IMG/VR virus record: IMGVR_UViG_3300010233_000051
Span: 783-45,342 of that record
Length of the DNA stretch: 44,560 nucleotides
Direction: 5' to 3' (one strand)
Source of the DNA: a virus
Part shown: piece by piece, positions 27,222-42,087 of the stretch
Position numbering within the stretch: position 1 is the stretch's first letter
How the letters are laid out: each line of letters opens with the position of its first letter
Position numbers and translations under genes: made by a program
The notes under the pieces: generated by a model
The model's input: only the letters and a program-made list of their open reading frames with translations
What the model was told of the DNA's origin: nothing
Database searches by the model: none

Positions 27222-27300
27222 TCTTTCCAGTGAGAAGGGTGTATTGAGTCAGCTAGCCTGCTATACATGATTGCAAAATTAAACCTTCTTTCTGGAAAGA
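27222..27300 (+). repeat. Hairpin-bracketed element 8
   Basis: TTCTTTCCAGTGAGAAGGGT pairs with AACCTTCTTTCTGGAAAGA. The ~40-base interior has GCTAGCCTGC and no ORF. It is the shortest bracket. Confidence 0.7.
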
Positions 27301-27309
27301 CTACAAAAC

Positions 27310-27780: not shown

Positions 27781-27786
27781 ACTTTA

Positions 27787-27818
27787 TTTGGTAGTTTGAG
27801 AAAATTGTCGTACATTTG
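27787..27818 (+). promoter_or_regulatory. Bacteroidota-type promoter for HNH gene
   Basis: TTTG (27787-27790), 20 bases, TACATTTG (27811-27818): a full match to TTTG/TAnnTTTG. The start codon follows within 4 bases, so the transcript would be essentially leaderless. Confidence 0.8.
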
Positions 27819-27821
27819 TGT

Positions 27822-28217
27822 ATGTCAATTAAAGTAAAAAATAAAACTTGTATTATATGTAAACGGGAGCGACCCTGGTTTTCTAAGAAGACTTGTCGCT
27901 CCTGTTATCTTAAAGCACATAATAAACCTATATTATCCAAATCTACTATTAAGAAGATTAGTGATAAACATAGAGAACGTCTAAAAAAGTATCAGGAACT
28001 CAGAGATCAATACTTTTTAGAACACCCTACTTGTGAATTTCCTGGTTGTACTTCTAAGAGAATTCAATTACATCATCGCGCTGGTAGGTTAGGACAGAAG
28101 TTATATGAAGATTTTATGTCATGCTGTTCTACACATCACGAATATATCCATATGAATCCTACTGAATCTTATGAAAATGGTTGGTTAATTTCAACTTTAA
28201 AACAAAACAATGATTAA
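27822..28217 (+). CDS. HNH endonuclease, probably homing
   Basis: This 131-aa protein has a zinc site CIICKRERPWFSKKTCRSC near the N-terminus, then CEFPGCTSKRIQLHHRAGR and CSTHHEYIHMNP: a canonical HNH with paired Cys, LHH and a final HH-x-x-(I)H. It carries its own promoter. It overlaps the next gene by 8 bases. Probably a mobile free-standing endonuclease. Confidence 0.8.
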   Translation: MSIKVKNKTCIICKRERPWFSKKTCRSCYLKAHNKPILSKSTIKKISDKHRERLKKYQELRDQYFLEHPTCEFPGCTSKRIQLHHRAGRLGQKLYEDFMSCCSTHHEYIHMNPTESYENGWLISTLKQNND

Positions 28218-28590
28218 ACTTTCAACAAAGAAAATAATTGAAGTACAAGATTGGGACGATCTTGTTCAAAAAACATATAATAAAAGTTATTCTTTTCAAC
28301 AGCAATATGGCTGTCAACATAGGGGTCTTTTTAATTTAACTATTCCTGAAGAAACTAATGATGAAGAGATGCATGATTCTATCCAGGAAGAGGTGAATGG
28401 ACCTGAAGAAGGAGTTAAATTTGCTGTTTGGTTAGCCGCCGAAGCTAATTATCCCACTAAAATGAATAATTGGGAACGTTCTTTATTCTGGTCAAGAAAC
28501 TTTTATCCAGATATACAAACAGTCGCTAATGATCTTCATTCTAAAGGATTAATTGAAGCTGGGCCATACGCTATAAATATTGATTGGTAA
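28210..28590 (+). CDS. Phage protein, unknown
   Basis: This 126-aa, acidic, mainly helical protein contains EEGVKFAVWLAAEANYPTKM and HSKGLIEAGPY. A left-type dispersed site lies at 28378. Unknown. Confidence 0.65.
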   Translation: MIKLSTKKIIEVQDWDDLVQKTYNKSYSFQQQYGCQHRGLFNLTIPEETNDEEMHDSIQEEVNGPEEGVKFAVWLAAEANYPTKMNNWERSLFWSRNFYPDIQTVANDLHSKGLIEAGPYAINIDW

Positions 28591-28612
28591 TTTCACGAAT
28601 TAAAATAAAACA

Positions 28613-28828
28613 ATGAAACCAAATAGAAATAGAAGTCTAAGTATATTATTTTTTGTGCTATTTCTTATAGCTTTTGTCTTTGTTTGGCGTTATTCTACAG
28701 AGGGCGTGCCCACAGTAAAGGATTGGTGTAAACTCCTTATTCTGGAAAGTCTAATTCAAACTTCTCTACACTACTCAAACAAAGTATCTAAGAAGAAACG
28801 TAAAATCAAAGTATATGTTGATAAATAA
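28613..28828 (+). CDS. Two-helix membrane protein
   Basis: This 71-aa protein has a helix at residues 8-24 and a second amphipathic one, with a basic C-terminus (KKKRKIKVYVDK). The GC-rich word AGGGCGTGCCC (28701) precedes a right-type dispersed site (28738) in the coding sequence. Confidence 0.6.
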   Translation: MKPNRNRSLSILFFVLFLIAFVFVWRYSTEGVPTVKDWCKLLILESLIQTSLHYSNKVSKKKRKIKVYVDK

Positions 28829-28834
28829 GAATAA

Positions 28835-28866
28835 TTTGGTAATCTCGAGAAAATAGCTTATATTTT
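28835..28866 (+). promoter_or_regulatory. Bacteroidota-type promoter for GIY-YIG gene
   Basis: TTTG (28835-28838), 20 bases, TATATTTT (28859-28866). It is nearly identical in sequence to the promoter at 40980-41011. Confidence 0.75.
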
Positions 28867-28870
28867 TATA

Positions 28871-28946
28871 GCTACTACTCCTATTATAAACTTATTCAAG
28901 TCTCATTTAGGATACTCTTCGGAGTAGTAGCACCTATCTGGGACTT
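28871..28946 (+). ncRNA. Pseudoknotted leader of the GIY-YIG gene
   Basis: P1 GCTACTACTCC (28871-28881) pairs perfectly with GGAGTAGTAGC (28921-28931). AAGTCTCA in its loop (28898-28905) pairs with TGGGACTT (28939-28946) outside, making a pseudoknot 8 bases before the ATG. The loop shares ATTATAAACTTATT with the leader at 41017. It probably restrains translation. Confidence 0.65.
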
Positions 28947-28954
28947 CTTTGTTT

Positions 28955-29836
28955 ATGGCTACATGTGGGATTTATGAAATTGTAAATGATACTAACCAAA
29001 AAAGATACATTGGCTATTCTAAAGATATTGAAAGTAGAAAATCTGTTCACTTTCGTACATTAGAGTTTCAGATACATAGAAATGCTCATCTACAAAATGC
29101 TTATAATCTTTATGGACGACATAACTTTTCACATAATGTCATTCAAGAATGTTCTGAGAATGAATTATGCTTTTGGGAGCATTATTGGGCTACTATACTT
29201 AAAACACATGATTCAGAATTTGGATATAATATAGAACCAACAGCTGAAACACGTCATATTAAAAAACTACGAAAAAAAGTATTACAATATGATTTAGAGG
29301 GTAACTTTATACAGTTATTTGAAAATTTGGATTTAGCAGCAAGTTTTGTAAATGGATTACCAGATGCCATTTCACATTGTGCTTCTGGTTTTTGTAAATC
29401 TTCATATAGATACTTGTGGAAATATTATGAAGAAAATTTTCCTATAAAAATTGATTCATATCCACCTAGTAAAAATACAGGAAGAGTATGTTCTAGAGAA
29501 AGTGTTGAAAAAACAGCATCAAAGTTAAGAGGTAGAAAATTATCTGATGAAGTTAGAGCAAATATATCAAAAGGACATATTGGTTTAAAAGCTTCTGAAG
29601 AAACTCTTGAAAAGTTACGAAAATTTCAAAGGAATAGAAAGCATAAAGAACACATTGGTATAAAGATTATTAATACTGTAACAGGTGAAATATATAATTC
29701 TATTAGTGTTGTAGCTAGAATTTTGAAACTTAGCTCATCGGGTATGCGAAAGAAGCTAATAGGAAAAATAAATAATAATACACCATATATTTTTTATGAT
29801 AATAATATTACAGAAGAAAAACGGAAAAACGAATAG
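28955..29836 (+). CDS. GIY-YIG homing endonuclease
   Basis: This 293-aa protein has an N-terminal GIY-YIG domain: CGIYEIVN...KRYIGYS, R29-type Arg in DIESRKSVHF, E in FWEHYWA. DNA-binding repeats of the NUMOD kind follow (VLQYDLEGNFIQLFENLDLA; IINTVTGEIYNSISVVAR with a HTH-like KLSSSGMRKKL). This is the organisation of group I intron-type or free-standing homing endonucleases such as I-TevI. ATG 28955 is preferred to an upstream TTG. Promoter and leader are its own. It overlaps the next ORF by 41 bases. Confidence 0.85.
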   Translation: MATCGIYEIVNDTNQKRYIGYSKDIESRKSVHFRTLEFQIHRNAHLQNAYNLYGRHNFSHNVIQECSENELCFWEHYWATILKTHDSEFGYNIEPTAETRHIKKLRKKVLQYDLEGNFIQLFENLDLAASFVNGLPDAISHCASGFCKSSYRYLWKYYEENFPIKIDSYPPSKNTGRVCSRESVEKTASKLRGRKLSDEVRANISKGHIGLKASEETLEKLRKFQRNRKHKEHIGIKIINTVTGEIYNSISVVARILKLSSSGMRKKLIGKINNNTPYIFYDNNITEEKRKNE

Positions 29837-30119
29837 TGAGTTATCTGAGTATATTCAGTCACTTACTGATGGAAAATATTTAGTAAGAATTCATTCACTA
29901 GAAAATAATAATCTAGAAGCTTTACGTAAGAAGTATTTTTTTCAGATTGAAACTATTGCTAATCACACAGGACACACAAAACAAGAAACTCATGAGTTAT
30001 TTAAAAAATCTATTGATATAATATCAACAAAAGGTAATAATCTTTCGGTAGAACAATGGTTAAAACTTATTGAACAACTTCAAGAATATGCTTTTTTTAA
30101 TCTAGACATACTACTTTGA
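29796..30119 (+). CDS. Helical phage protein
   Basis: This 107-aa protein has an ATG inside the end of the GIY-YIG gene. Its first ~12 residues may be an artefact of that insertion. Helical, with EELF/KSID-type segments. It is coupled to the next gene. Unknown. Confidence 0.6.
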   Translation: MIIILQKKNGKTNSELSEYIQSLTDGKYLVRIHSLENNNLEALRKKYFFQIETIANHTGHTKQETHELFKKSIDIISTKGNNLSVEQWLKLIEQLQEYAFFNLDILL

Positions 30120-30487
30120 CACAAACCATATTAATTTTAGGAATACTCTTAATTCATTATATCGCAGATTTCTGGGTGCAAACTTCAGAAGAAGCTAGAA
30201 ATAAGAGTCATAGCATTACAGCGCTTCTCTCTCATACTTTCTCTTATTCTTTTTTCTTTATTATTCCAATGATGTTTATCTTTGCTTCGATAAATAAGAG
30301 TCCGTCTTTAGCTTGGGAATTTTGTGCTATAACTTTTGTTTTACATACTATAACAGATTTCTTTACTTCTCGTGTTAATGCTTATTTTTGGAGGCAGGGG
30401 CGCGACCGAGACTTCTTTAAGAATCTGGGATTTGATCAGCTACTTCATTTCATACAACTTCTATTAACATTTCAACTACTACAATGA
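30116..30487 (+). CDS. DUF3307 family membrane protein
   Basis: This 123-aa protein has a TTG start. The pattern HYIADFWVQTSEEARNKSHS, then SHTFSYSFFF, HTITDFFTS and FDQLLHFIQLLLTF matches DUF3307, a small family of 3-4 membrane helices with conserved H and D residues found in phages and bacteria. Function unknown. ATGA overlap with the next gene. Confidence 0.75.
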   Translation: MTQTILILGILLIHYIADFWVQTSEEARNKSHSITALLSHTFSYSFFFIIPMMFIFASINKSPSLAWEFCAITFVLHTITDFFTSRVNAYFWRQGRDRDFFKNLGFDQLLHFIQLLLTFQLLQ

Positions 30488-30681
30488 TAGGGGTGAGTTC
30501 ATTTAAGGATAGTTTTACTGAGGAAGAAGCTTTATCTTTCCAGAAAGAGGTGGAATATAAGAATCAAATTAAAGAACTTCAAGAACTTTTAAGAAAGTAT
30601 CGTGAAGATGACGCAAGAAAAGACAAGTTTATTGTTAAACTTTCAGAACGATTACACTACTGGGAGAGTGGAACTGGATAA
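30484..30681 (+). CDS. Small coiled-coil protein
   Basis: This 65-aa, charged helix (EYKNQIKELQELLRKYREDD) includes SFQKEVE encoded by a left-type dispersed site (30537). Unknown. Confidence 0.6.
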   Translation: MIGVSSFKDSFTEEEALSFQKEVEYKNQIKELQELLRKYREDDARKDKFIVKLSERLHYWESGTG

Positions 30682-30683
30682 AT

Positions 30684-30968
30684 ATGAACAGACAACTAGG
30701 TAGACGCGATAGTTATTCTTGGAAACCAAAAGAACCAAGATTTGTGAAAAACACAAAAGAGAAACCTATGAAGATAAAGGACCTTTTTTCTGGAAAGAAA
30801 ACAAAATACATTACAGAAAGAGAATTAAGAGAATATTACATTCAATATTGGGAATGGGGATCTCTAAGCAATGTGCCACCACATATAATAAATAGAGCAA
30901 ATAATATTTCTCTTGAAGAACTTTTACAATTACATACAGTATTACAAGGTAAAACATTTAAAGAATGA
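30684..30968 (+). CDS. Small phage protein
   Basis: This 94-aa protein has a basic N-terminus (NRQLGRRDSYSWKPKEPRF), then FSGKKTK encoded by a right-type dispersed site (30790). It ends in a helix. Overlaps the next gene by 4 bases. Confidence 0.6.
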   Translation: MNRQLGRRDSYSWKPKEPRFVKNTKEKPMKIKDLFSGKKTKYITERELREYYIQYWEWGSLSNVPPHIINRANNISLEELLQLHTVLQGKTFKE

Positions 30969-31144
30969 CTGAAAAACAACTAAGAGAAGCTATAATTAAA
31001 GCTAATCTCTCATATCGCACGCAAGAAAGTGAATTTTTGTTTCTCCATCAAATAGTAAATAATATGAGTAGAGAGCATCTTATTAAACTTTATGCAAAAA
31101 AATATATACCTAAAGGAGAGGTTTTAGAAGATGAAAAAGAGTGA
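30965..31144 (+). CDS. Small helical protein
   Basis: This 59-aa protein (MTEKQLREAIIKANLSYRTQ...) is ATGA-coupled to its neighbour upstream and overlaps the next start by 14 bases. Unknown. Confidence 0.6.
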   Translation: MTEKQLREAIIKANLSYRTQESEFLFLHQIVNNMSREHLIKLYAKKYIPKGEVLEDEKE

Positions 31145-31406
31145 AGAAGATCCTAAACGGATACTAAATCAGGCAACAGGATTAGCGTTTCTTGGAGTAC
31201 AGTCTATTATACCAGTACTTCATGAGAAAGAACGTCTTCGTGATGAAGGGCGCGCCCTACGTAAGGAAAACACAAGACTGAAAACAGAATCTCAAAAGAA
31301 AGATCAAGCTCTAAAAACACTACAGAGAAAATGTACTGAACTTGAGCATCAACTTTCGCGCCATTCAAAACACGAATCTATTAATCAATACAATATTTTA
31401 CACTAA
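31131..31406 (+). CDS. Coiled-coil protein
   Basis: This 91-aa protein has residues 30-75 as a continuous heptad-like coiled coil (LRKENTRLKTESQKKDQALK). It contains the palindrome GGGCGCGCCC (31249). One-base overlap with the next gene. Unknown. Confidence 0.65.
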   Translation: MKKSEEDPKRILNQATGLAFLGVQSIIPVLHEKERLRDEGRALRKENTRLKTESQKKDQALKTLQRKCTELEHQLSRHSKHESINQYNILH

Positions 31407-31603
31407 TGAAAGAAACAATAACTATTACTAAGGAGGAACATGCTCGTCTTTTATACATGGAAGATTGGATTACTTGTTTAGAGGCGGCGGGTGTAGAACA
31501 CTGGGAAGGAATTGATGAAGCAAATAGACTCATGGAACAAATAGACGAAGAATTAGATCGTTGGAGAAATAACGGAAGTGTAGAGTGGGAGGAGATTGAA
31601 TGA
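31406..31603 (+). CDS. Small acidic protein
   Basis: This 65-aa protein (ITITKEEHARLLYMEDWITC; GVEHWEGIDEANRLM) is a helical, common phage form of an 'EEHxxLLxxxxxLxxLEAAGVDNWxGxxEA' protein. It is ATGA-coupled to the polymerase gene. Unknown function. Confidence 0.7.
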   Translation: MKETITITKEEHARLLYMEDWITCLEAAGVEHWEGIDEANRLMEQIDEELDRWRNNGSVEWEEIE

Positions 31604-33468
31604 GTAAATTATGGATCTATGATTGGGAAACAACAATTTCCTTTGCTGAAGTAAGCTTTCTTGAGTTTAATTCAGATAAACATGTTACGTTTCAAATTGA
31701 CGATGATACGGGAAGAAACGATCGACAGCAGTTGATTGATTTTGTAAAAGGAAAAATGCTAGTTGGATTCAATAATCAAACGTTCGATAATATTCATACT
31801 AATTATTGCATCAAAAATAAGACTGTAAAAGCTGCAGATCTTTATAAGATTAGTGGACAAATTATAAATGGACAAAAAGATCAAGGATTTAATCTTTATA
31901 AAGAATTTAAGGACTATTTAAAGTCTGATCTTTATGAATCCATAGATCTGATGAGACTTCTATTTTCAAAGAAGCTTAGATGTTCTCTTAAAGAACTTGA
32001 ATGTTCTCTTAACTTTAAATCAGTTCGTGAATTTCCTCATGGATTTGATAAGAAACTTACATCTTCCCAGAAAGAGGAGTTAATTGCATATAATTTAATA
32101 GACTGTGAAGCTACAAAACTTGTATTTTCTAAATCTATAGATGCTCTTAAGATTCGTCGTTGGATGGAAGAAGAGTATGGAATTGATGCCTTCTCACTGG
32201 ATAGTGTAAATTCTGGAGTAAAAATAATAGAAGTACTTTATCAGAAAGAAATAGGTAATGCAGATTTTAAAGAGCAAAGAACTTTTAGAGATAAGATAAA
32301 TATTAAAGATATTATTCTTCCTCAAGTAGAGTTTAAAACTAAAGCTTTTCAAGATGTATTACAAGTTTATAAAAATCATACTTGGTATTCTAAGCATTTT
32401 ATAGAAGAACTTTTTGAAGATGGTAAACTTCTTCATGAACCTCTTATAAATGGATTTAAGTTTAAGTTTTCTCTTGGTGGACTTCACGGTTATACTCAAG
32501 CAGGAGCTTGGAAAAGCGACGACAAATATGATATTCTTTCAATAGATGTAATCTCTTACTATCCAAGTCTTATAATTAAGCATAAATTCTGTCCTGGACA
32601 TCTTAATTCTGATCTATTTCTACGCATTTACGCTGGCATTAAAGAGGAGCGAGTTCGCGCTAAGGCAGAAGGTAATAAACTTAAAAATGAGACGCTTAAG
32701 CTATCTTTAAATGGCTCCTATGGTATGTTTGGATCACAATATTCATGGTTATTTGATCATCAGGTTCGTTTACAGATTTGTGTAAGTGGACAACTATTCT
32801 TAGCAATGCTTATTGAGAGACTTTTTGAAAATAATATTCAGCTAATTGATGCAAATACTGATGGATTATTTGTAAAAGTTCTTAAGACAGACCGCGCGCT
32901 CCTTGATAAGATAATTAAAGAATGGGAAGCTATTACTTTAATGGAAATGGAACTTACTAAGTTTGAGGAAGTATATTTTGTTAATACAGCAGATTATATA
33001 GGAACTACTATTAGTAAAGGTAAAATTTCTTTCAAGGAGAAGGGTATGTTTATTTCTGAAACTCAATTAGGAAAAGGATCTGAATTTCCTATTATTGCGA
33101 AAGCTATAAGAGAATATCTATTTAATAAAATTCCTATTGAAAAGACAATAAGAGAAGAATCAAATATACTTCAGTTCTGTAGCTATAAAAAGCTAAAGTA
33201 TGGAACTAAGTGTTTTCACAACCAACAAAAACAACAACGGGTAAACAGATTCTTTGCTGTTAAAAGTGGTGCTTATCTCTATGCAAAAGTAGTAGATGAA
33301 GAAACTAAGAAAGTTAGAATTACAAATCTTCTAAAGGATTCACCAGTTACTATTTTAAATGAATTAGATGATAAAAAGATTGAAGATAGAAGTATTAACT
33401 ATCCTTTTTATCTTAATTCGGCGCGCACCATTATATCAGCTATAGAGGGTATAAAAGAACTATGGTAA
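31600..33468 (+). CDS. Family B DNA polymerase
   Basis: This 622-aa protein has a 3'-5' exonuclease with ExoI D8-W-E10, ExoII FNNQTFD63 and ExoIII YNLID168. The polymerase has motif A D316-VISYYPS, motif B LSLN371-GSYG and motif C N419-T-D421-G. The first Asp of DTD is Asn, while the essential second Asp is kept. At 622 residues it is short, like the compact polymerases of crAss-like phages. It copies the phage genome with the helicase, primase and SSB encoded nearby. It overlaps the downstream gene by 7 bases. Confidence 0.92.
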   Translation: MSKLWIYDWETTISFAEVSFLEFNSDKHVTFQIDDDTGRNDRQQLIDFVKGKMLVGFNNQTFDNIHTNYCIKNKTVKAADLYKISGQIINGQKDQGFNLYKEFKDYLKSDLYESIDLMRLLFSKKLRCSLKELECSLNFKSVREFPHGFDKKLTSSQKEELIAYNLIDCEATKLVFSKSIDALKIRRWMEEEYGIDAFSLDSVNSGVKIIEVLYQKEIGNADFKEQRTFRDKINIKDIILPQVEFKTKAFQDVLQVYKNHTWYSKHFIEELFEDGKLLHEPLINGFKFKFSLGGLHGYTQAGAWKSDDKYDILSIDVISYYPSLIIKHKFCPGHLNSDLFLRIYAGIKEERVRAKAEGNKLKNETLKLSLNGSYGMFGSQYSWLFDHQVRLQICVSGQLFLAMLIERLFENNIQLIDANTDGLFVKVLKTDRALLDKIIKEWEAITLMEMELTKFEEVYFVNTADYIGTTISKGKISFKEKGMFISETQLGKGSEFPIIAKAIREYLFNKIPIEKTIREESNILQFCSYKKLKYGTKCFHNQQKQQRVNRFFAVKSGAYLYAKVVDEETKKVRITNLLKDSPVTILNELDDKKIEDRSINYPFYLNSARTIISAIEGIKELW

Positions 33469-34190
33469 AACAGGAACAAGTGAATAGGGTAAATGTGGCA
33501 CTCGATAGTGCAATTATTAAAAAACTTCGAGAAGCACGAATTAGCGAACGAGAAATGGGTTCAGCTGAGGTTGTACTAATTGGAATGTTAAATGACGAAG
33601 TTGAAGTCTTGGATGAGATGGATCAAGAAAATAGCAATCGTGATTTTGTATTATTCTTTAAGAGTCTTGAACATAAAGGATTAGTTCAGGTAGATAAGGA
33701 CGGGCCGCTCAATTGGAAATTAACTAAGAAAGGGACTGATCTTGCCACCTTTATTCTGGAAAGAAGTGATTCTCAAATAGTAACTCAAGTTCAAATTCTC
33801 GACAAAGAAACAGGAGAGCTAGTAGAACAAGAACCAACAGATCTACAGAAACTAGCAAGAGAAGTTAATGCTGCATTTCCACCTTCTAATGATCAGAAAC
33901 GTCAGTTACGAAGAGGATATGATAATACTTTGAGGAAGCTAGAAGTGTTTAAGTCTAATTATTCCTTTCCAGAAGATGTGGTGCTAGATGCAGTAAAACT
34001 CTATCTAGCTGAACAAGAAGATTCACCAAGTGGTCATCAGTTCACACAGAATTGTAGCAACTTCATAGCTGAACAAGATAAAACAGGAAAGGTCTTGTCT
34101 TCAACTTTAGCTGGTTGGTGTGAAAAGGTCTTGGAAGAGCGTAAAAGTCCAACGCAATCGTTTAATACTAAATCTTTAGACACCGTTTAA
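33462..34190 (+). CDS. Winged-helix-like replication-region protein
   Basis: This 242-aa protein has an N-terminal segment with a winged-helix look (SLEHKGLVQVDKDGPLNWKL followed by TKKGTDLATFIL). The C-terminal half is helical (AFPPSNDQKRQLRRGYDNTL). It lies between polymerase and helicase, so a replication accessory or loader role is reasonable but unproven. Confidence 0.65.
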   Translation: MVKQEQVNRVNVALDSAIIKKLREARISEREMGSAEVVLIGMLNDEVEVLDEMDQENSNRDFVLFFKSLEHKGLVQVDKDGPLNWKLTKKGTDLATFILERSDSQIVTQVQILDKETGELVEQEPTDLQKLAREVNAAFPPSNDQKRQLRRGYDNTLRKLEVFKSNYSFPEDVVLDAVKLYLAEQEDSPSGHQFTQNCSNFIAEQDKTGKVLSSTLAGWCEKVLEERKSPTQSFNTKSLDTV

Positions 34191-34201
34191 ATTTTATTAA
34201 T

Positions 34202-34399
34202 ATGAAACAAACTAGCGAGAACTGGTACAGTCAACTATATCCAAATAAGGAAGTTAAAATACTCGATCCTGATGGCTGGGATCGTACTAATTATCGTTAT
34301 TCTTTTAAAGAAGAGTTAGTAACTGAATCAGAGTTTAGAGAAAGATTAATGATGTCTACTTGTACAAGAATAATCCCTCTTTCTGGAAAGAAAAATTAA
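34202..34399 (+). CDS. Small phage protein
   Basis: This 65-aa protein ends IIPLSGKKN, encoded across a right-type dispersed site (34377) that overlaps the stop. Unknown. Confidence 0.6.
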   Translation: MKQTSENWYSQLYPNKEVKILDPDGWDRTNYRYSFKEELVTESEFRERLMMSTCTRIIPLSGKKN

Positions 34400-34404
34400 A
34401 AACT

Positions 34405-34566
34405 ATGGAAAACACTAAAACAGACATCAACACATGGAACGATGTAGAACTTTTAGATTGGATAGATCTAAACGGTATCATGTCTTTCCAGGAGATAAGT
34501 GAAAAACAACTCTCACGTAAGCAGTTGATTCAATTAATAGATGAGAAAATACTTAAGTTTGATTAA
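34405..34566 (+). CDS. Small acidic protein
   Basis: This 53-aa protein starts at ATG 34405 (MENTKTDINTWNDVELLDWI). The short helical SAP/HeH-like segment ends ISEKQLSRKQLIQLIDEKI. A left-type dispersed site lies at 34485. Confidence 0.55.
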   Translation: MENTKTDINTWNDVELLDWIDLNGIMSFQEISEKQLSRKQLIQLIDEKILKFD

Positions 34567-34578
34567 AGGAGGTAAAAC

Positions 34579-35643
34579 TTGAGCTTATATGAGGAAACAA
34601 TAAAGGATATAGAGGAAAAGAGAGCTCGAAAACAACAGAAGTTATTTAATGGTGTGCCTTTTTCCTTACCAAGATATCGAAAATACTTTGATACATTTGA
34701 AAAAGGCACATACATGGGTATCGTCGCGAATTCTGGCGTGGGTAAGAGTAGATTTCTTAGACATCTAATTTACCACATAGTAGATTTTGCTATAGCTAAC
34801 AGATATATGGTTAAAGTCTTATATTTTGCTATGGAAGATGAGAAAAAACAGATTAATAAACGAATTATAGCTCATTATCTCTATGTAAAATATGGAGTAT
34901 CTCTAAGTCAACAATATTTAAATTCTATAGACGAGCCGCTTCCTGACAAATATCTTCAATTAATTAAAAATGATGAACCGTTTTGGAAATTATTTGAATC
35001 TATAGTATGGATAATAAACGATGCTAATACACCAAATGAAATTGAACGAATATGTAAAAATATTCACGAGAAATATGGTAAAACGCATCACTTATTTTGC
35101 TGTTTAGATAATTTAGCTAATGTTGTTGCAGATCCGTCTGATGAAAATGAATGGAGTGCAATTCGTCGTTTATCAAGGAATATATGTAGATTAAATCTGT
35201 GTAAAACTCTTGGATATACAGTAATAGCACTCGTTCAGGCCGACATCGATACGGAAAAAGGAACTTTCAAGAATGTTGGATCAAAGGGTTTAATAAATAT
35301 TGAACCAAATGCTGCTAGTCTTGGAGGGACTAAGGTAATTATAAGAGATTTTTATATATTACTTGGACTTTTTTCACCTAATAGGTATGAGATTGAACAA
35401 TATCCTTATTCTGGAGCCTATAATGTGAAAGTACTTAGAAATAAGCTATTGGCTGTTCTTTGTCTTAAAAATAATAATGGCGAAATCGCACCTAGACTTT
35501 GCCTTAATTTCGACGGAAAAAATGAGGTGATAACAGAGCTTCCTCAAGTAGAAGACAAAGAGGCGCTTGAAAAATTATATAACGCAGTAATGAAAGAGGA
35601 GTTAGAAAAGAAATCTAAATCCCCCTCTTTCTGGACAGACTAA
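34579..35643 (+). CDS. SF4 (DnaB-like) replicative helicase
   Basis: This 354-aa protein has Walker A ANSGVGKS (50-57), a FAMEDE strand as the conserved Glu of SF4 helicases, Walker B LFCCLDNLA and motif H3 VIALVQAD with the sensor Gln. The C-terminal RNKL...LCLKNNNGE forms the R/K finger region. No N-terminal DnaB collar domain is present; only the ATPase core and a short leader, as in many phage helicases. TTG start with strong AAAGGAGG. It unwinds DNA ahead of the polymerase. Confidence 0.88.
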   Translation: MSLYEETIKDIEEKRARKQQKLFNGVPFSLPRYRKYFDTFEKGTYMGIVANSGVGKSRFLRHLIYHIVDFAIANRYMVKVLYFAMEDEKKQINKRIIAHYLYVKYGVSLSQQYLNSIDEPLPDKYLQLIKNDEPFWKLFESIVWIINDANTPNEIERICKNIHEKYGKTHHLFCCLDNLANVVADPSDENEWSAIRRLSRNICRLNLCKTLGYTVIALVQADIDTEKGTFKNVGSKGLINIEPNAASLGGTKVIIRDFYILLGLFSPNRYEIEQYPYSGAYNVKVLRNKLLAVLCLKNNNGEIAPRLCLNFDGKNEVITELPQVEDKEALEKLYNAVMKEELEKKSKSPSFWTD

Positions 35644-35651
35644 ATGAAACT

Positions 35652-35960
35652 ATGGAAATGAAAAAACAGATGAGGTTTGTACGTAATCACAATATAACTC
35701 CATCTACATCAGGAACACTTAAAGAGTTAAAAGAAGCTATTGCTGCTATAGACTTTCCAGAAGATTGGAAATATGATATAGAATGTGGTGAAGATTATTT
35801 TGAAATAGAACTTCATGAGCAACGTGAAGAGACAGACGATGAGCTTGCTAGGCGCGCTCAACAACAAAATGAGTGGATAGCACAACAAGAAGAGCGTGAA
35901 AAGAAGGAGTTTGAACGTCTGAAACAAAAGTTTGAAAATGGTTCACCAAAGTTCTCTTAA
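35652..35960 (+). CDS. Acidic coiled-coil protein
   Basis: This 102-aa protein has a small folded N-terminus (FPEDWKYDIECGEDYFEIEL), then a long E/Q/K/R helix (QREETDDELARRAQQQNEWI). Its end runs into a right-type dispersed site (35961). Unknown. Confidence 0.65.
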   Translation: MEMKKQMRFVRNHNITPSTSGTLKELKEAIAAIDFPEDWKYDIECGEDYFEIELHEQREETDDELARRAQQQNEWIAQQEEREKKEFERLKQKFENGSPKFS

Positions 35961-35977
35961 ACCTTCTTACTGGAAAG

Positions 35978-36160
35978 ATGAACAAAACCAATCGTAACAA
36001 ATTACAAGAGAAAGCAGAACTCTTAGATGATCCCTTAATACAAGACATCTGTGTAGACCTTCTACTTTCTCTACATGAATCAGGAACATCCCTAGAATAT
36101 CTAGTTTTAGTAAAACAACTTCAAAAGAATTATGAGAAAGATTTGGTAGAATCAAAATAA
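35978..36160 (+). CDS. Small helical protein
   Basis: This 60-aa protein (MNKTNRNKLQEKAELLDDPL...) overlaps the -33 and spacer of the following promoter. Unknown. Confidence 0.6.
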   Translation: MNKTNRNKLQEKAELLDDPLIQDICVDLLLSLHESGTSLEYLVLVKQLQKNYEKDLVESK

Positions 36161-36173
36161 AGTTGTAACTTTG
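36142..36173 (+). promoter_or_regulatory. Bacteroidota-type promoter for Sak4/SSB genes
   Basis: TTTG (36142-36145), exactly 20 bases, TAACTTTG (36166-36173): a full match. It would start a transcript about 40 bases before the Sak4-like gene. It is the only such promoter here not tied to an endonuclease gene. Confidence 0.8.
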
Positions 36174-36218
36174 TATGAATAAAATGAGAAAAAGAAAAGT
36201 GATGGAGGTAACAGCAAA

Positions 36219-36953
36219 TTGAGCAAAAGCGTATTCGTAATTGGTTCGTCTGGAGCGGGCAAAACAAGTAGTATCAGGACCCTTAATCCTGAAAGTACGT
36301 TCATCTTCAACTGCCTTTCCAAGGAAATGCCTTGGAAGCACAGTGCGAAGCAATACACACCGTTTAATCCAGAAACGGGAAAGGGAAATATAGTTGTAAC
36401 AACAGATGCACAAGTTATTATTAAGTGGTTAGGTTATATTAATAAGAATCTCCCACATGTCAAAAACATTATAATTGACGATAATACATATGTGACCATC
36501 ATGGAATTACAGCGCCGGAAAAGTGAAAGTTGGGAGAAATTTGATATTATTGCATCTAATTTCTTAGATTTAACTGCTAAAGCTAGAACTTTAAGAGACG
36601 ATATTGTAGTATTCTTTTTACATCACACTCAAGAACAAACCGATGATATAACTCAAGACAAGAGTTACAAAGCTATATCATTTGGGCGCTTCACTGATGA
36701 GAAGCTTGGTGGTCAGGAAACACAATGGACAGTTGTTCTTAGAGCAGCTAAAGAAATAAATGGGGATAAATTAGATTATGTGTTTCATACAAAAGAGGCG
36801 GCCTCTACAGCAAAAGCTCCTTTTGAAATGTTTGAAACAGATAAGATACCAAACGATCTGGCATTTGTACGTAAAACTATGGATTGCTACTATGACGGAG
36901 ATTGTGGAGAAATACCAGAACAACTAAAACCAAAAACAAAACAAGCAAATTGA
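36219..36953 (+). CDS. Sak4-like / AAA_24 P-loop ATPase
   Basis: This 244-aa protein has Walker A IGSSGAGKTSS at the extreme N-terminus and Walker B-like NIIIDDN (~85). A RecA-like core follows, with FFLHHTQEQ as the sensor strand and a long AAKEINGDKLDYVFHTK. Phage ATPases of this kind (Sak4/AAA_24) work with SSB in strand annealing; the SSB gene lies two genes downstream. TTG start with GGAGGT 9 bases upstream. Confidence 0.8.
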   Translation: MSKSVFVIGSSGAGKTSSIRTLNPESTFIFNCLSKEMPWKHSAKQYTPFNPETGKGNIVVTTDAQVIIKWLGYINKNLPHVKNIIIDDNTYVTIMELQRRKSESWEKFDIIASNFLDLTAKARTLRDDIVVFFLHHTQEQTDDITQDKSYKAISFGRFTDEKLGGQETQWTVVLRAAKEINGDKLDYVFHTKEAASTAKAPFEMFETDKIPNDLAFVRKTMDCYYDGDCGEIPEQLKPKTKQAN

Positions 36954-37150
36954 ACGAAGAAACAGGACCTCTCTTTATAAGAGACAGTAAACTACCAATT
37001 AATCCACTAAAGCGTGAAGCTTATCAAAAAGCGTGGGAGATGTGTAGAGAGAATAAGTATGATCAAAATGGTCAAATAGTAATACCAATAACTATAGAGC
37101 AGGTGTTAAATACTGCTCAGATTATAGAAGGATATTTAACACAAGAGTAA
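36950..37150 (+). CDS. Small phage protein, TTG start
   Basis: This 66-aa protein starts at the TTG overlapping the previous TGA (MNEETGPLFIRDSKLPINPL). It ends in helix QVLNTAQIIEGYLTQE. Coupled to the Sak4-like gene. Unknown. Confidence 0.65.
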   Translation: MNEETGPLFIRDSKLPINPLKREAYQKAWEMCRENKYDQNGQIVIPITIEQVLNTAQIIEGYLTQE

Positions 37151-37206
37151 GACGGATAGTTTGTATCCGACCCAAGTAACAAAATCGAAACAACTAAATA
37201 AAACAA

Positions 37207-37845
37207 ATGAACGAAACGAACAACGTGAGTAAGACAAGTGGGAATGAATATAACTTCGGTGCGATTGAAGTTATGGAACGTGTTAACTGGTTACAACCAG
37301 GTAACTACAATTTGAGTATTACAGGTGCTAAGTATATGAAGCCTGAAGGAGAGAAGATGGGGGGCGGGCCTAAAACGCCTTTTGTGATGGTGTCTTTCCA
37401 GGGAAAGGCGGGCAAGGTAGATAGCAACCTCTATGTTACGCCTAAAGCCTTCGTAAAGCTTAAGTATCTTTATGAGAACTGGTTTGAAAAGACCTGTGAT
37501 AAAGACTTCTCTAAAGAGAAGAATCCGATAGACAGCATTGGAATGTTCTTCGAGAAAGCTTTCTCAAGTGATACAGCAAAGAAGATAAGTAAAAATCTGA
37601 TTATAGGGGGGCGAACCTCTACTACTGGAAAGGTATTTGCAGAAGTACCATTTAGTAACTTTATTATACCTGATGGTACTGAGTTTGTAGAAGGACCATT
37701 TGAAGTAGGTTCGACTCAATATATCTTGAATGTAAAGGGTGCGCCAATGACACCCGCCTCGAATTCTAATTCAGTAGTATTGGATAATGATCCTTGGAAT
37801 ACTCCTGGATCTGGTGAGAATGACGTAGATTCGCTCCCATTTTAA
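37207..37845 (+). CDS. Single-stranded DNA-binding protein
   Basis: This 212-aa protein has an OB-fold-like N-terminal part (NYNLSITGAKYM; PFVMVSFQGKAGKVDSNLYV) and an insertion with a helical region. The flexible acidic tail ends GENDVDSLPF, the SSB C-terminal protein-interaction tip. Placement beside the Sak4-like ATPase and in the replication module supports this. A left (37395) and right (37625) dispersed site lie in the gene. Confidence 0.8.
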   Translation: MNETNNVSKTSGNEYNFGAIEVMERVNWLQPGNYNLSITGAKYMKPEGEKMGGGPKTPFVMVSFQGKAGKVDSNLYVTPKAFVKLKYLYENWFEKTCDKDFSKEKNPIDSIGMFFEKAFSSDTAKKISKNLIIGGRTSTTGKVFAEVPFSNFIIPDGTEFVEGPFEVGSTQYILNVKGAPMTPASNSNSVVLDNDPWNTPGSGENDVDSLPF

Positions 37846-38047
37846 TTATCGTAATATAAAAGATAATAAGATCAAAAATAAGGAAATAACTAAACCAAAA
37901 GAGCTAATAAAAAAAGCTAAATATATTCCAAGTCCAGGATATGATAAAAATGGTCATATTCTTGATTATGATGATGCAAGATCAGATGAGTATATAAAAT
38001 ATAAACTTAAACACGGTCCAACTGGATGGAGTTCAAGCAATACTTAA
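37829..38047 (+). other. Open frame without a standard start, after SSB
   Basis: A 72-codon open frame runs from just inside the SSB end to TAA at 38045. Its content looks coding: AKYIPSPGYDKNGHILDYDD and then EYIKYKLKHGPTGWSSSNT. It has no ATG, GTG or TTG. The frame is +1 to SSB, and the junction is CCA TTT TAA T. Options are a rare start (ATA/ATC), +1 frameshifting at TTT-T, or a sequence error that split one gene. Confidence 0.4.
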
Positions 38048-38096
38048 AGATTTCCTTACCTTAAATGTTTAGCCTTTTTAAGGTTTAATCATTAAC

Positions 38097-38129
38097 AAAG
38101 CTCTTGTTTCTACAGGAGCTTTTCATTTT
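38097..38129 (+). terminator. Intrinsic terminator
   Basis: AAAGCTC (38097) pairs with GAGCTTT (38116-38122), with inner TTGT/ACAG pairing, followed by a T-rich tail. A second hairpin CCTTAAA/TTTAAGG lies just upstream. Confidence 0.7.
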
Positions 38130-38155
38130 AAAACTAATAAAAAATAAATAATAAA

Positions 38156-38515
38156 TTGAGTAAACGTAATACAACAAGAACACATATAACAGAAGGCGAA
38201 AGTAATGCAATGTGGAATTCACTCATGTACCATTGGAGTAAGAATGGTTTTGAATATGATTCTCTAACTGCTTTAGAAAAGAGAGTAATGAGTAAGGATC
38301 GTTTTGAGCATTTGGTAGGAATGCTTCAATCTGGTGAGAGAAAGCCCCATTCTAGGCTTTATGTGATCGCTAAAGAGGTTAAAAAAGAAACTCCAGTACA
38401 GCAGTTACTTCCGTGGGAAGAGCCCCAGAAAACGACTCCTACAGAGAAAGTAACAGTAATAACACCTGACGATAAACAAGCTCTTCTAAGAAAGCTTGTA
38501 GATTTATTATCATAA
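38156..38515 (+). CDS. Phage protein, TTG start
   Basis: This 119-aa protein (MSKRNTTRTHITEGESNAMW...) has a helical N-terminal domain, a Pro-rich linker (TPVQQLLPWEEPQKTTPTEK), and a short C-terminal helix. Possibly an adaptor. Unknown. Confidence 0.65.
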   Translation: MSKRNTTRTHITEGESNAMWNSLMYHWSKNGFEYDSLTALEKRVMSKDRFEHLVGMLQSGERKPHSRLYVIAKEVKKETPVQQLLPWEEPQKTTPTEKVTVITPDDKQALLRKLVDLLS

Positions 38516-38567
38516 TTTTCCATTGATTTCGGTTGATTTTTCATTTTTTGGTCAACTGTTTTTTTGT

Positions 38568-38596
38568 AGAGTCTGCTATTCCTAGTAGACTTTTTT
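38568..38596 (+). terminator. Intrinsic terminator
   Basis: GTCTGCTA-TTCC-TAGTAGAC (38571-38590, 7 of 8 paired) is followed by six T. Confidence 0.8.
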
Positions 38597-38618
38597 CATT
38601 TTAAAACAACTCAATAAT

Positions 38619-38756
38619 ATGTTAACAATCAAGAAAAAGAAAGACAAACCCCCTTCTTCTGGAAAGAAGAAAAGTCAAAAACAAATTGATGAACAAGTAA
38701 AAGCTCGAGCAGTTCAATCAATGAATCTTAAAGACGTAAAAGAACAACGATCATAA
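38619..38756 (+). CDS. 45-aa basic protein
   Basis: MLTIKKKKDKPPSSGKKKSQ is highly basic; SSGKK is encoded by a right-type dispersed site (38654). Leader TTTTAAAACAACTCAATA precedes the start. Possibly DNA-binding. Confidence 0.5.
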   Translation: MLTIKKKKDKPPSSGKKKSQKQIDEQVKARAVQSMNLKDVKEQRS

Positions 38757-38775
38757 TCACTTAAAACATATTACA

Positions 38776-39201
38776 TTGGGTTGTCATACATGGGCATATT
38801 TACCTAAAATAAAAGGTAAAGAGAACATTATAAAATATTGGAAGGATCAACAAGAGTGGTATTACTGGGAAGATGAACATGACTTTATCGAATGGGGTAA
38901 TACTAAAGATTATCTCTTTGATGTCTATAATTCTTGGCATTTTCTTTTATTACAACCCAATAATGAGTGGTGGTTATATGAATCTGTTTCAGAAATTAGT
39001 GATGAGCCAAGAATTGGAGGTTATCCTGATAAAGTAATTCACTCTGAAAAAGAAATGCTTGAGTTTATGGGTACTGGATTTACTAATGAAGAAGGAAAAC
39101 ATTTTGATTTCTATTACGATGCAGATCGTTATGATATCTTTATGAAAGGAATACAAACATTTTTTCAAAAACATCCTGATGGGATAATAACTTTTGGTTG
39201 A
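38776..39201 (+). CDS. Phage protein rich in W/Y
   Basis: This 141-aa protein (MGCHTWAYLPKIKG...) has many aromatic residues and an acidic C-terminal half (GGYPDKVIHSEKEMLEF). The MG-C-H-T-W start is a common phage form. TTG start. Unknown. Confidence 0.7.
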   Translation: MGCHTWAYLPKIKGKENIIKYWKDQQEWYYWEDEHDFIEWGNTKDYLFDVYNSWHFLLLQPNNEWWLYESVSEISDEPRIGGYPDKVIHSEKEMLEFMGTGFTNEEGKHFDFYYDADRYDIFMKGIQTFFQKHPDGIITFG

Positions 39202-39202
39202 T

Positions 39203-39433
39203 ATGGATATATGGAAGGAGTTGGATTCTATCCAGAAAGAGGGTTGTATAGTAAGATTATGTTGGAATGAGTACGTGGCTTTTAATCTTCCTATTATAGA
39301 TAAAAATCGTGTACCACATGCGTGTTTTACTTCACATGACCCTAAACAAGATTTTTTAAAAACAATTTATCACGCAATACTTAAATTTGACACAGACTCA
39401 GCTAGAAATAGTAAACAAACTAGTAGCAAATAA
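39203..39433 (+). CDS. Small phage protein
   Basis: This 76-aa protein starts at ATG 39203 (MDIWKELDSIQKEGCIVRLC) and overlaps the next gene by 47 bases. A left-type dispersed site lies at 39229. Unknown. Confidence 0.6.
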   Translation: MDIWKELDSIQKEGCIVRLCWNEYVAFNLPIIDKNRVPHACFTSHDPKQDFLKTIYHAILKFDTDSARNSKQTSSK

Positions 39434-39692
39434 TCCTATTCAGTATAATCTTTTGAAAGCTTGTGAAGAACTCACAGAGTTAACTGAAGTTTTACTAAAG
39501 AAAGTTAATAAGAAAGGAGGTATTAAAGAGCCACCTAATTCTGCTATAATTGAAGAAATTGGAGATTCTTATATAAGACTCGCCGCCCTATCAATTATAT
39601 TTGGAGAAGAAGCTGTAGAAGCACGAATTAACTACAAACTTGGTAACTTTGAAAAGTATATGAAAGAAGGTAAGTATCGAGGAACCATATGA
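39387..39692 (+). CDS. MazG-like nucleotide pyrophosphohydrolase
   Basis: This 101-aa protein has EELTELTEVLLK and IIEEIGDSYIRLAAL, the ExxE...ExxD metal-binding set of all-alpha NTP pyrophosphohydrolases (MazG/dUTPase-2 type). It probably hydrolyses dNTPs or regulatory nucleotides. TTG start; ATGA overlap with the primase. Confidence 0.75.
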   Translation: MTQTQLEIVNKLVANNPIQYNLLKACEELTELTEVLLKKVNKKGGIKEPPNSAIIEEIGDSYIRLAALSIIFGEEAVEARINYKLGNFEKYMKEGKYRGTI

Positions 39693-40765
39693 CCGATGTA
39701 GAAACATATATTAAAAAAGCAGGTATGGCAAAAAATGCGTTTGATTTCAGTAAAATACAAACTAAAAGTCTTACACCAGAATGGATTCTAGAAAGAGTCA
39801 CTGATAGCGAAATAATCTACCATTTTGTAGGACCTTTTAAGTTAAATAAACAATGTAAATCGCCATTTCGTAAAGATAATACGCCGAGCTGTACTTTTTT
39901 TGTGGGTAATTCGGGAGAAATTGTTATGTTCGATTTTCGCGACAAAATAGCACTCAACTGTTTTCGTATAGTTGAAAGAATTCATAACTGTAATTTTAAT
40001 AAAGCACTTACAATCATTGCAGAAACTTTTGGCCTCATTGATACTAAGACTTCAATTGCTTCTCCTACACTTTGTCTTGAAGCTAGAGAGCTTGATAGAA
40101 CTATTAAGAAAGATGTACTTATTCAGTTCACTAAAAGTGAATGGAAGCCGTTTCTTGGTTCTCCATTCTCTTATTGGGTTGATTATGATTATTCTAAGAA
40201 GGAACTCATAGATAATAACATCTTTAATGTGGATAGGCTCTTTCTTAATAAGAGAGAGATCTATAATAAATCAGGGGAGCCGCGATTTGCTTATGTTGAA
40301 AGTGAACCAGGGGGCGCCGATTTAGTAAAGATTTATATGCCTCTTGCTAAAGGTGGAATGAAGTGGTTATCTACATTTCCCCTTGATCGTCCTTTTGGAA
40401 TTCACCTTCTTCCTGGAAAGAGTGATGTCTTAATCATTACTAAATCAAAGAAGGATATGGTACTCTTTAAAAGAGTATTCACTGATGTGATTGGGCTTCA
40501 GAATGAGAGTTTAGGGGCTCTTAATATGGATACTATTAAGTATCTAAAGAGTAAGTATAAAAGTATAGTTCTTTGTCTAGGATGTGACCCTCATGGTCAT
40601 GGAATTACACTTCAACTTCAAAAGAGAATTGGTAATCAAGCCACCTTTTGGGAGACACCCCTACAAGATTATCAACGCTTTCAAGTTGAAGATCTCTCAG
40701 ATTATACTAAACAATATTCATGGTCAATGACTATGGAACTTCTTCAAAAAGATAAAATGATATAA
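39689..40765 (+). CDS. DnaG-like primase (degenerate Toprim)
   Basis: This 358-aa protein's N-terminal region SPFRKDNTPSCTFF...IVMFDF is the CHC2-like primase fold, but the zinc cysteines are missing. The Toprim part has VLIITKSKKD where others have E-G or T-K-S, and LCLGCDPHG for the usual D-x-D, so the first Asp is Gly. A TKS form is common in phage primases, so activity cannot be excluded. It would make primers for the nearby polymerase. Confidence 0.7.
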   Translation: MTDVETYIKKAGMAKNAFDFSKIQTKSLTPEWILERVTDSEIIYHFVGPFKLNKQCKSPFRKDNTPSCTFFVGNSGEIVMFDFRDKIALNCFRIVERIHNCNFNKALTIIAETFGLIDTKTSIASPTLCLEARELDRTIKKDVLIQFTKSEWKPFLGSPFSYWVDYDYSKKELIDNNIFNVDRLFLNKREIYNKSGEPRFAYVESEPGGADLVKIYMPLAKGGMKWLSTFPLDRPFGIHLLPGKSDVLIITKSKKDMVLFKRVFTDVIGLQNESLGALNMDTIKYLKSKYKSIVLCLGCDPHGHGITLQLQKRIGNQATFWETPLQDYQRFQVEDLSDYTKQYSWSMTMELLQKDKMI

Positions 40766-40766
40766 T

Positions 40767-40973
40767 ATGAAAAATCATGAATTAATAACTCTTTTAGAAC
40801 AGTATGATCCACAAGCAGATGTGGTAATCTATGTTAATGTTTCTGAAGATGGTGGCGAAGCAAGTAATGTTTCTCTATCTGATTTTGAAACTCAACCTTA
40901 TATGAAAGGAATGGAATTTGAAGAAATTAATCCACATCTCACACAACCTTTTATTATAATAACATCAAACTAA
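40767..40973 (+). CDS. Small acidic protein
   Basis: This 68-aa protein begins ELITLLEQYDPQADVVIYVN, a small phage form (ELI-x-x-L-x-x-x-(D/N)PxAxV) often beside replication genes. Unknown function. Confidence 0.65.
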   Translation: MKNHELITLLEQYDPQADVVIYVNVSEDGGEASNVSLSDFETQPYMKGMEFEEINPHLTQPFIIITSN

Positions 40974-40979
40974 AATAAA

Positions 40980-41011
40980 TTTGGTAATGTCAATAAAATA
41001 GCTTATATTTT
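40980..41011 (+). promoter_or_regulatory. Bacteroidota-type promoter for endonuclease VII-like gene
   Basis: TTTG (40980-40983), 20 bases, TATATTTT (41004-41011). About 85% identical to the promoter at 28835, including the spacer end AAAATAGCT. Confidence 0.75.
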
Positions 41012-41016
41012 TATTA

Positions 41017-41112
41017 GCTATTACTTCTCGGACTAACTACATTATAAACTTATTTAGTCCCTACTTCAGATATTTACCCGTCCGGTAAGTAATAGCCTCT
41101 GATTTAGGGGCT
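41017..41112 (+). ncRNA. Pseudoknotted leader of the endonuclease VII-like gene
   Basis: P1 GCTATTACTT (41017-41026) pairs with AAGTAATAGC (41087-41096). CGGAC/GTCCG can extend it. AGTCCCTA in the loop (41056-41063) pairs with TAGGGGCT (41105-41112), forming a pseudoknot. Compared with the leader at 28871, both helices are kept while the sequence differs, and ATTATAAACTTATT is shared. Confidence 0.65.
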
Positions 41113-41123
41113 TTTTTATTTAT

Positions 41124-41627
41124 ATGCCTAGTAGAATAGTAGAAGTAATTGATGGTAAGAAAACATGTTCAGTTTGTAAGAAAAACTTATTAATTATATG
41201 TTTTCATAATTTAGCTAGTACAAAATGTGGTTTAGCTAGTTGTTGTAAGGAATGTAGTAAGGCAGCAAAAGCCCAATCAAAAAATAAAGCTAGTAAAGAA
41301 CATACTGCTTTAGTAAATTTAAAGCAACAGATTAGACGACGTTATGGATTAACATTAGAACAATATTATCAAATGATTAAAGACCAAGATAATAAATGTG
41401 CTATTTGTGGAAATCCTGAAACAGCTGTAGACCCTAGAACAAATAAAGTTCGAGCGCTATCTGTAGACCACTGCCATAAAACAGGAAAAGTTCGTAAATT
41501 ATTATGTAGTGCGTGTAATAATGGACTTGGGTGTTTTCGAGATAATCCTAAATTAACAATTAAAGCAACTAATTATTTAATCAACTATAATGAAACAGAA
41601 ACAAGCACTAACACAACGCGAGATTAA
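41124..41627 (+). CDS. Endonuclease VII-like HNH protein
   Basis: This 167-aa protein has an N-terminal zinc ribbon (CSVCKK...CCKECSK). The endonuclease VII motif follows: CAICGNPE...LSVDHCHKTGKVRKLLCSAC then NNGLGCFRDNP. Endonuclease VII enzymes resolve branched DNA, but free-standing homing endonucleases share the fold. The private promoter and leader, shared with the GIY-YIG gene, favour a mobile role. Confidence 0.8.
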   Translation: MPSRIVEVIDGKKTCSVCKKNLLIICFHNLASTKCGLASCCKECSKAAKAQSKNKASKEHTALVNLKQQIRRRYGLTLEQYYQMIKDQDNKCAICGNPETAVDPRTNKVRALSVDHCHKTGKVRKLLCSACNNGLGCFRDNPKLTIKATNYLINYNETETSTNTTRD

Positions 41628-42087
41628 TGAATCTCAACTTACCGAGATCCTGCTAGGTATCAAGGGCGCAAAATTTATGACTGTGACTACAAACACAGAA
41701 CCTTCAATGAGAAAAACTAATAATCCTTTTTCTGGACAGGATGTTAGAAAGATCTCTACGAATAATATTACAGTTAACTTTGATTATGGTAAATCTCTCC
41801 AGAAGAAGGGGGGAACACCATCAGACAAAGGAAGAACATGGGGTAGTCGTGTAGGTAAAACTTCATTCATTCAACATAAAGGTGGTCTTTATGTACAAGC
41901 AAAACTCAACGCTAAACCACAAAAAGTAGTCTATACTTTAGATGGTACAGAGATGACCCCAGAACAACTTACCGCATTGCAACCTTTTCTCTCACATCGC
42001 GCAGCACAATTGGTTCCAATTATAGATGTTGGGGTTCAGAATATTAAAGAACTAAAGATCGACAAACAGCACTTCATAGTAAAGTAA
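41590..42087 (+). CDS. Phage protein, unknown
   Basis: This 165-aa protein starts inside the end of the endonuclease gene. It contains NPFSGQD (right-type site at 41725) and SLQKKGG (left-type site at 41800). Its first residues may derive from the endonuclease insertion. Strand-rich C-terminus. Unknown. Confidence 0.65.
   Translation: MKQKQALTQREINESQLTEILLGIKGAKFMTVTTNTEPSMRKTNNPFSGQDVRKISTNNITVNFDYGKSLQKKGGTPSDKGRTWGSRVGKTSFIQHKGGLYVQAKLNAKPQKVVYTLDGTEMTPEQLTALQPFLSHRAAQLVPIIDVGVQNIKELKIDKQHFIVK

Follow-up and report, generated by a model that had tools for sequence, protein, structure and literature searches.

Two endonuclease genes with a common leader

We analysed 44,560 nucleotides of viral DNA (the window), positions 783 to 45,342 of record IMGVR_UViG_3300010233_000051; this is nearly all of the 45,960-base record. 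Candidate promoters followed by structured leaders were found upstream of two genes encoding unrelated endonucleases, one of the GIY-YIG family and one similar to Endonuclease VII. A third copy lies upstream of another Endonuclease VII-like gene in L094, a near-identical phage fragment and the one relative retrieved by a search with the DNA polymerase (14,652 bases; polymerase protein 100% identical). The features are listed below; window features are on the plus strand.

28835..28866, promoter 1, Bacteroidota type, predicted from sequence (TTTG at 28835, TATATTTT at 28859)
28871..28881 with 28921..28931, helix P1, copy 1, GCTACTACTCC/GGAGTAGTAGC
28883..28896, loop element ATTATAAACTTATT, copy 1, can pair with GTTTATG at the start codon (helix P0)
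28898..28905 with 28939..28946, helix P2, copy 1, AAGTCTCA/TGGGACTT
28908..28911 with 28933..28936, helix P3, copy 1, TAGG/CCTA
28944..28954, U-rich tract without A, adjoining the start codon, copy 1, 73% U
28955..29836, GIY-YIG endonuclease gene (Pfam PF01541; weak NUMOD1)
40980..41012, promoter 2, Bacteroidota type, predicted from sequence
41017..41026 with 41087..41096, helix P1, copy 2, GCTATTACTT/AAGTAATAGC
41041..41054, loop element ATTATAAACTTATT, copy 2
41056..41063 with 41105..41112, helix P2, copy 2, AGTCCCTA/TAGGGGCT
41066..41070 with 41098..41102, helix P3, copy 2, TCAGA/TCTGA
41113..41123, U-rich tract TTTTTATTTAT before the start codon, copy 2, 82% U
41124..41627, Endonuclease VII-like gene (Pfam PF02945)
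L094, helix P1, third copy, GTCAGTACTTG/CGAGTACTGAC
L094, helix P2, third copy, TCCCCAC/GTGGGGA
L094, helix P3, third copy, TTAGG/CCTAA

Copy 1 (28835-28957) and copy 2 (40980-41126) are 76% identical over 126 aligned bases, and the match begins with the promoter and stops at the start codon. The 20-mer AAAATAGCTTATATTTTTAT is identical at 28850 and 40995, 0.13 matches being expected in the window when up to three mismatches are allowed. A matching promoter and leader on these two genes, with helices P1 and P2, had been claimed in an earlier reading of the window (the original prediction); the shared structured leader is confirmed, and both helices are present in both copies as described. The same reading held ATTATAAACTTATT to be constant. 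It is identical at 28883 and 41041, but the third copy carries ATTATAAATTTATA in its place.

The leaders of the window are about 85-110 bases long, and the plan is the same in all three copies. Firstly, P1 begins at the predicted 5' end or immediately beside it. Secondly, P2, separated from P1 by 16-29 bases, ends 8-13 bases upstream of the start codon. Finally, P3, an additional helix beyond the two originally described, is located between P1 and P2. In the three copies U makes up 73%, 82% and 55% of the 11 bases preceding the start codon, the means for 61 other starts in the window being 33% U and 46% A.

The consensus of the Bacteroidota sigma-ABfr promoter is TTTG near -33 and TAnnTTTG near -7 (PMC7366714). 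All copies have TTTG followed by TATATTTT, which fits this consensus except for the last base, where the consensus has G.

Covariation and alternative folds

The alignment of the three stems, made manually in pair register, comprises three sequences, with stems chosen because they pair. Eight of the 25 pairs are changed on both sides and 90.7% of the cells pair, whereas slid registers yield 33-46% paired cells and 0-2 double changes; none of 500 shuffles reached both observed values. The double-changed pairs fall in P1 (five) and in P2-P3 (three), and the cells are paired in 97% of cases in the first helix and 86% in the second. The statement that both helices covary thus stands for the three copies; in the window pair alone there is little covariation in P2, and it is chiefly the L094 copy that supports the statement. 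A P1 at the 5' end with a crossing P2 as good as those observed was found in 0, 1 and 1 of 3000 dinucleotide shuffles for copies 1, 2 and L094, respectively, values that are optimistic since the descriptor was written after the copies had been seen.

Judged from these alignments, the folded structure of the leader is real, because the L094 copy keeps the fold while its letters change. The idea that recent copies are merely alike through descent, with incidental pairing, agrees with the 76% identity of copies 1 and 2 and with the small number of copies. However, compensated changes occur in P1, P2 and P3 of copy 3, and this explanation, already disfavoured, seems hardly credible. P1 and P2-P3 are conserved individually: the covariation backs each helix separately, and the pseudoknot that they could form together is putative.

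When folding is restricted to nested structures, each leader has two states, one with P1 and the other with P2-P3 and an inner hairpin. Their energies are -20.9/-21.2, -23.3/-26.4 and -25.9/-24.1 kcal/mol (P1/P2-P3, three copies), so that the gap is 0.3 to 3.1 kcal/mol; such folds treat the states as alternatives. The P2-P3 state of copies 1 and 2 adds an AU helix formed by ATTATAAA and extending to the start codon; it is absent from the lowest fold of copy 3. In folds of transcript prefixes, P1 is lowest when transcription has just passed it.

The following scheme may be suggested. The portable promoter and 5' leader would give free-standing homing endonuclease genes a host-type transcript of their own, with expression restrained by RNA structure. 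Transcription would start from the Bacteroidota-type promoter a few bases upstream of P1, close to 28869 and 41015, and P1 (10-11 bp) would be the first helix to form. The 3' strand of P2, once made, would pair back to the P1 loop, with P2 continued by P3 and ending shortly before the start codon, and P0, an AU helix of ATTATAAA with the U-rich start region, would extend the fold over the start codon itself. With P2, P3 and P0 formed the initiation region would be covered and the gene off; with P1 alone the region would be open and the gene on. The transcription start, the assignment of the off and on states, the effect on translation, the setting of the balance and the coexistence of P1 and P2 are parts of this scheme that we infer.

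Such a cis-acting RNA lock on translation, situated beside the start codon, is the leading reading, and we give it about an even chance of being correct. In Bacteroidota, translation is correlated with richness in A at the start (PMC7366714); the leaders, U-rich there and unlike the A-rich starts elsewhere in the phage, speak for the lock. Further points in its favour are the common fold of the three copies, the end of P2 close to the start codon, the small energy gap between the two states, the early folding of P1, the occurrence of the leader at three sites of insertion and the precedent in T4-like phages (see below). Several observations weigh against it. A U-rich start adjoining a stem rich in G would be expected if ATTATAAA kept the start region shut, and just as much if the stem were an intrinsic terminator. 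The pairs of the putative P0 are nearly all A-U. P1 of copy 1 may be so stable that refolding would be slow. There are just two copies in the window plus one from a close relative. Finally, endonuclease genes that have the promoter and lack the leader occur in the same phages, and hence not all such genes need restraint.

The intrinsic terminator leads to the main alternative and close rival, a transcription attenuator in which P2-P3 would be the terminator hairpin followed by its U tract, and P1 would delay or interfere with it, letting a part of the transcripts reach the gene. Indeed, the 3' strand of P2 (GGGAC, GGGGC, GGGGA) directly precedes a U-rich stretch in all three copies, a candidate leader from another phage, L196 (see below), likewise has GGG followed by UAUUUAUUCUU, and the P1 and P2-P3 states are near balance. 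However, P1 and P2 have no bases in common, and thus P1 does not qualify as a classical antiterminator; the pairs of P2 include A-U and G-U, and its loop is large; and the U tract ends at the start codon, where it may serve initiation. P2-P3 was not reported by a terminator scan, the loop being beyond the limit of the scan; a terminator-like site was reported at 41094-41112, with a different local stem. Attenuation is possible but somewhat doubtful, and we prefer a translational lock to it, both being inferences.

Near balance of the two states would also suit a switch responding to a ligand or a protein, be it a riboswitch or a system controlled by a phage protein, such as gene 32 of T4, where the leader has a pseudoknot and an A+U-rich stretch (PMC3014915). 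However, the conserved unpaired sequence is short, consists almost only of A and U and has no match in Rfam, and control by the gene's own product is improbable as the nucleases are unrelated. We regard such a switch as very unlikely. The position of P1 at or adjoining the predicted 5' end in all three copies is what would be expected of a protector or insulator, in which the 5' hairpin and the interlocked helix would make the mRNA more stable, or keep transcription from upstream out of the gene, and no switching would occur. This leaves unexplained the conservation of P2-P3 near the start codon and the U-rich start region, and is unlikely too, if less so than the responsive switch.

The original prediction named a translation lock, which is the leading reading here, and also a ribozyme and a riboswitch. 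Nothing supports a ribozyme or a metabolite riboswitch, and no matching Rfam family was found for either. A self-cleaving ribozyme similar to that of hepatitis delta virus was considered for its strand order (P1, P2, P1', P2') and rejected. Nothing else favours it: there is no match to an Rfam ribozyme, 16-29 bases lie between P1 and P2, no P1.1 or P4 was seen, and the transcript would already start at P1. Its probability is minimal.

Inserted units and distribution of the leader

Comparison of syntenic regions shows that L094 lacks both the GIY-YIG gene and the Endonuclease VII-like gene of the window, the flanking genes being present. Conversely, the Endonuclease VII-like gene of L094 (12241-12786) lies between a gene encoding a 101-aa protein and the primase gene, where the window has no insert. 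It is related to the window gene (33% identity over 179 aligned positions in BLASTP, 40% in a MAFFT alignment). The leaders are thus found at three sites that differ in presence between the two phages, in each case inside the inserted unit. Because of the GIY-YIG and Endonuclease VII domains and this pattern of presence and absence, the leader-bearing genes are predicted to be free-standing homing endonucleases; cleavage and homing are likewise predictions from sequence.

The leader of the GIY-YIG gene is 76% identical to that of the Endonuclease VII-like gene in the same genome, whereas the two leaders upstream of related Endonuclease VII-like proteins, those of the window and L094, are 59% identical. 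BLASTP gave no match between the GIY-YIG protein and the Endonuclease VII-like protein of L094. Since the GIY-YIG leader has its nearest counterpart upstream of an unrelated gene of the same genome, the leader was probably moved between, or converted among, non-homologous endonuclease genes. This upholds the earlier suggestion of one promoter-leader cassette carried by different nucleases.

Core stretches of 26646-42087 are 93-99% identical to L094 at the DNA level, and genes beside the endonuclease inserts are 33-62% identical at the protein level. The L094 homologues of the proteins encoded at 29796, 41590 and 39387 have 33%, 44% and 62% identity, respectively, and the primase has 88%. Low identity beside inserts is the pattern expected from homing with co-conversion, or from recombination near the inserts.

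The DNA polymerase is closest to those of Crassvirales (about 33% identity), and the gene order polymerase, ScpB-like, helicase, AAA, primase also resembles Crassvirales. Because of these two similarities, the window is probably a fragment of a crAss-like phage. The host group of the virus is Bacteroidota. The window also contains a transfer-messenger RNA (tmRNA) gene (24463-24834) with a long predicted tag of 31 residues; tmRNA genes are annotated also in the crAss-like phages cr131_1, cr130_1 and cr52_1. A tRNA at 9109-9193 was reported by Rfam and not by ARAGORN, and a tRNA-Gln at 20213-20287 was reported by ARAGORN and is not listed by Rfam.

The same kind of promoter also occurs before endonuclease genes without the leader in these phages. 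TTTGGTA-type promoters of HNH, GIY-YIG and Endonuclease VII-like genes were observed at 27787 and 18586 (minus strand) of the window, at about 44925 just past its end (L003:1505), and at 8640 and 1262 of L094. The corresponding starts are:

27816 and 18548 (minus strand) of the window, 8680 and 1290 of L094, promoter without leader, start a few bases past the predicted transcript start
just past the window end, GIY-YIG gene, promoter without leader, same short distance to the start

The mRNAs of these genes are likely leaderless, as judged from the predicted transcript starts. At 36142-36224 of the window a reading frame of 15 codons lies between a promoter of the same kind and the AAA gene; the matching place in L094 is occupied by an Endonuclease VII-like gene (8680-9246). 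This region is possibly a scar of a lost endonuclease.

Rfam contains no family matching the leaders, and none reaches the gathering threshold near them. Exact-pattern scans of IMG/VR for pieces of the leader gave no matches, and further scans gave seven chance matches in other contexts. Broader patterns combining the promoter and motifs matched at least 119 and 77 viral and at least 118 genomic stretches, among which the leader was present only in L094. No relative of the GIY-YIG protein was found in IMG/VR. BLASTN searches of phage records with the three leaders and the L196 leader gave chance matches only. A covariance model (R1) had strong scores for only the three copies among the sequences searched. 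It produced no match in 393 Bacteroidales genomes and, in 396 Flavobacteriales genomes, two weak matches that are unlike the leader and do not precede a nuclease gene; the filters were strict in both cases, making these weak negatives. Genes with NUMOD4 were present in 31 of 395 Bacteroidota genomes, and no leader at these loci was convincing, proper examination covering a part of the loci in reverse orientation. None of nine endonuclease genes from other phages of Bacteroidota or related to them has the leader, and hence the plan is not general. The further examples thus amount to the copy in L094, none being found by sequence or covariance model outside these two phages.

A descriptor comprising P1, P2, the U-rich tract and the start had 16 raw matches in 3.77 Mb. 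Homing endonuclease genes account for four of the six best matches, namely the three copies already known and, at 7006 of L196, an HNH gene with NUMOD4 (2.4e-17). The region 6880-7545 of L196 (IMGVR_UViG_3300046011_009114) contains a promoter-like TACATTTG, P1 (GCTATCTGATT/AATCGGATAGC), a crossing P2 (CCCGTAAA/TTTACGGG), a P3-like CAAC/GTTG and a U-rich tract. None of 3000 shuffles reaches the score of this leader, which was picked from thousands of start regions. These features are suggestive of the same plan without sequence similarity in an unrelated phage, and the L196 leader is a candidate only.

One may ask whether, across phages of Bacteroidota, homing endonuclease genes are repeatedly kept on an exchangeable leash by a plan independent of sequence (a 5' hairpin, a loop pairing just before the start codon and a U-rich tract), which would be a new class of cis-regulatory RNA carried by mobile genes. 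We consider this rather unlikely; if true, the L196 gene would be its fourth member.

Two other upstream regions were noted. A gene with two Endonuclease VII-like domains beside a primase-like gene (2418-3582 of L078, IMGVR_UViG_3300035698_013858) is preceded by a 13-bp perfect hairpin with a possible crossing helix; it scored 48 in one scan, has no U tract and gave no match in the stricter 5'-end test as framed, and thus is a weak lead. The region upstream of an HNH gene of a PinkBerry-associated phage (L445:7456-7977) has a 14-bp outer stem around another long stem, ending at a Shine-Dalgarno-like GGAGG.

Comparison with known systems

Homing endonucleases need enough expression to spread and not enough to harm the phage. 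According to the model above, the leader probably restrains the timing of endonuclease gene expression. If it is a portable RNA control element shared by unrelated endonucleases and moving with them, selfish genes would swap regulation as well as coding parts. To our knowledge, few RNA elements are known in Bacteroidota phages, and this one, if the reading is true, would provide a natural and compact RNA regulator for Bacteroidota, a group in which classical Shine-Dalgarno sequences are missing from mRNAs.

Structured RNA is tied to mobile nuclease genes also in HEARO and other endonuclease-associated RNAs of Rfam, whereas the leaders described here have no Rfam match at the gathering threshold. 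Transcription attenuators and riboswitch expression platforms are likewise balanced between two states of nearly equal energy and have a stem with a run of U's upstream of the gene. However, the alternative helices of our leaders share no bases, and no conserved ligand-binding core was found.

The closest parallels come from T4-like phages. RNA structures have been shown to cut translation of the free-standing homing endonuclease mobE of Aeh1, are implicated in that of segB, and are present in I-TevI (PMC3014915). As in our leaders, the structured RNA is situated at the start of a homing endonuclease gene. There, however, a hairpin sequesters the ribosome binding site, whereas our leaders have two interlaced helices, come from phages of a host group without the classical Shine-Dalgarno sequence and form one cassette on unrelated nucleases. 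The leader of gene 32 of T4, also a phage leader, has a pseudoknot, which in ours is putative, and like ours a stretch rich in A+U that reaches the start (PMC3014915). On the other hand, gene 32 is a single gene bound by its own product, and its pseudoknot is 67 bases away from the start codon, on the upstream side (PMC3014915), whereas ours would adjoin it. By analogy, the outline of the leader resembles the RNA structures of the T4-like endonucleases, and its topology seems closer to that of gene 32. RNA locks on homing endonucleases of T4-like phages are thus already known; what would be new is the interlaced helices, the host group and the sharing of one leader by unrelated nucleases.

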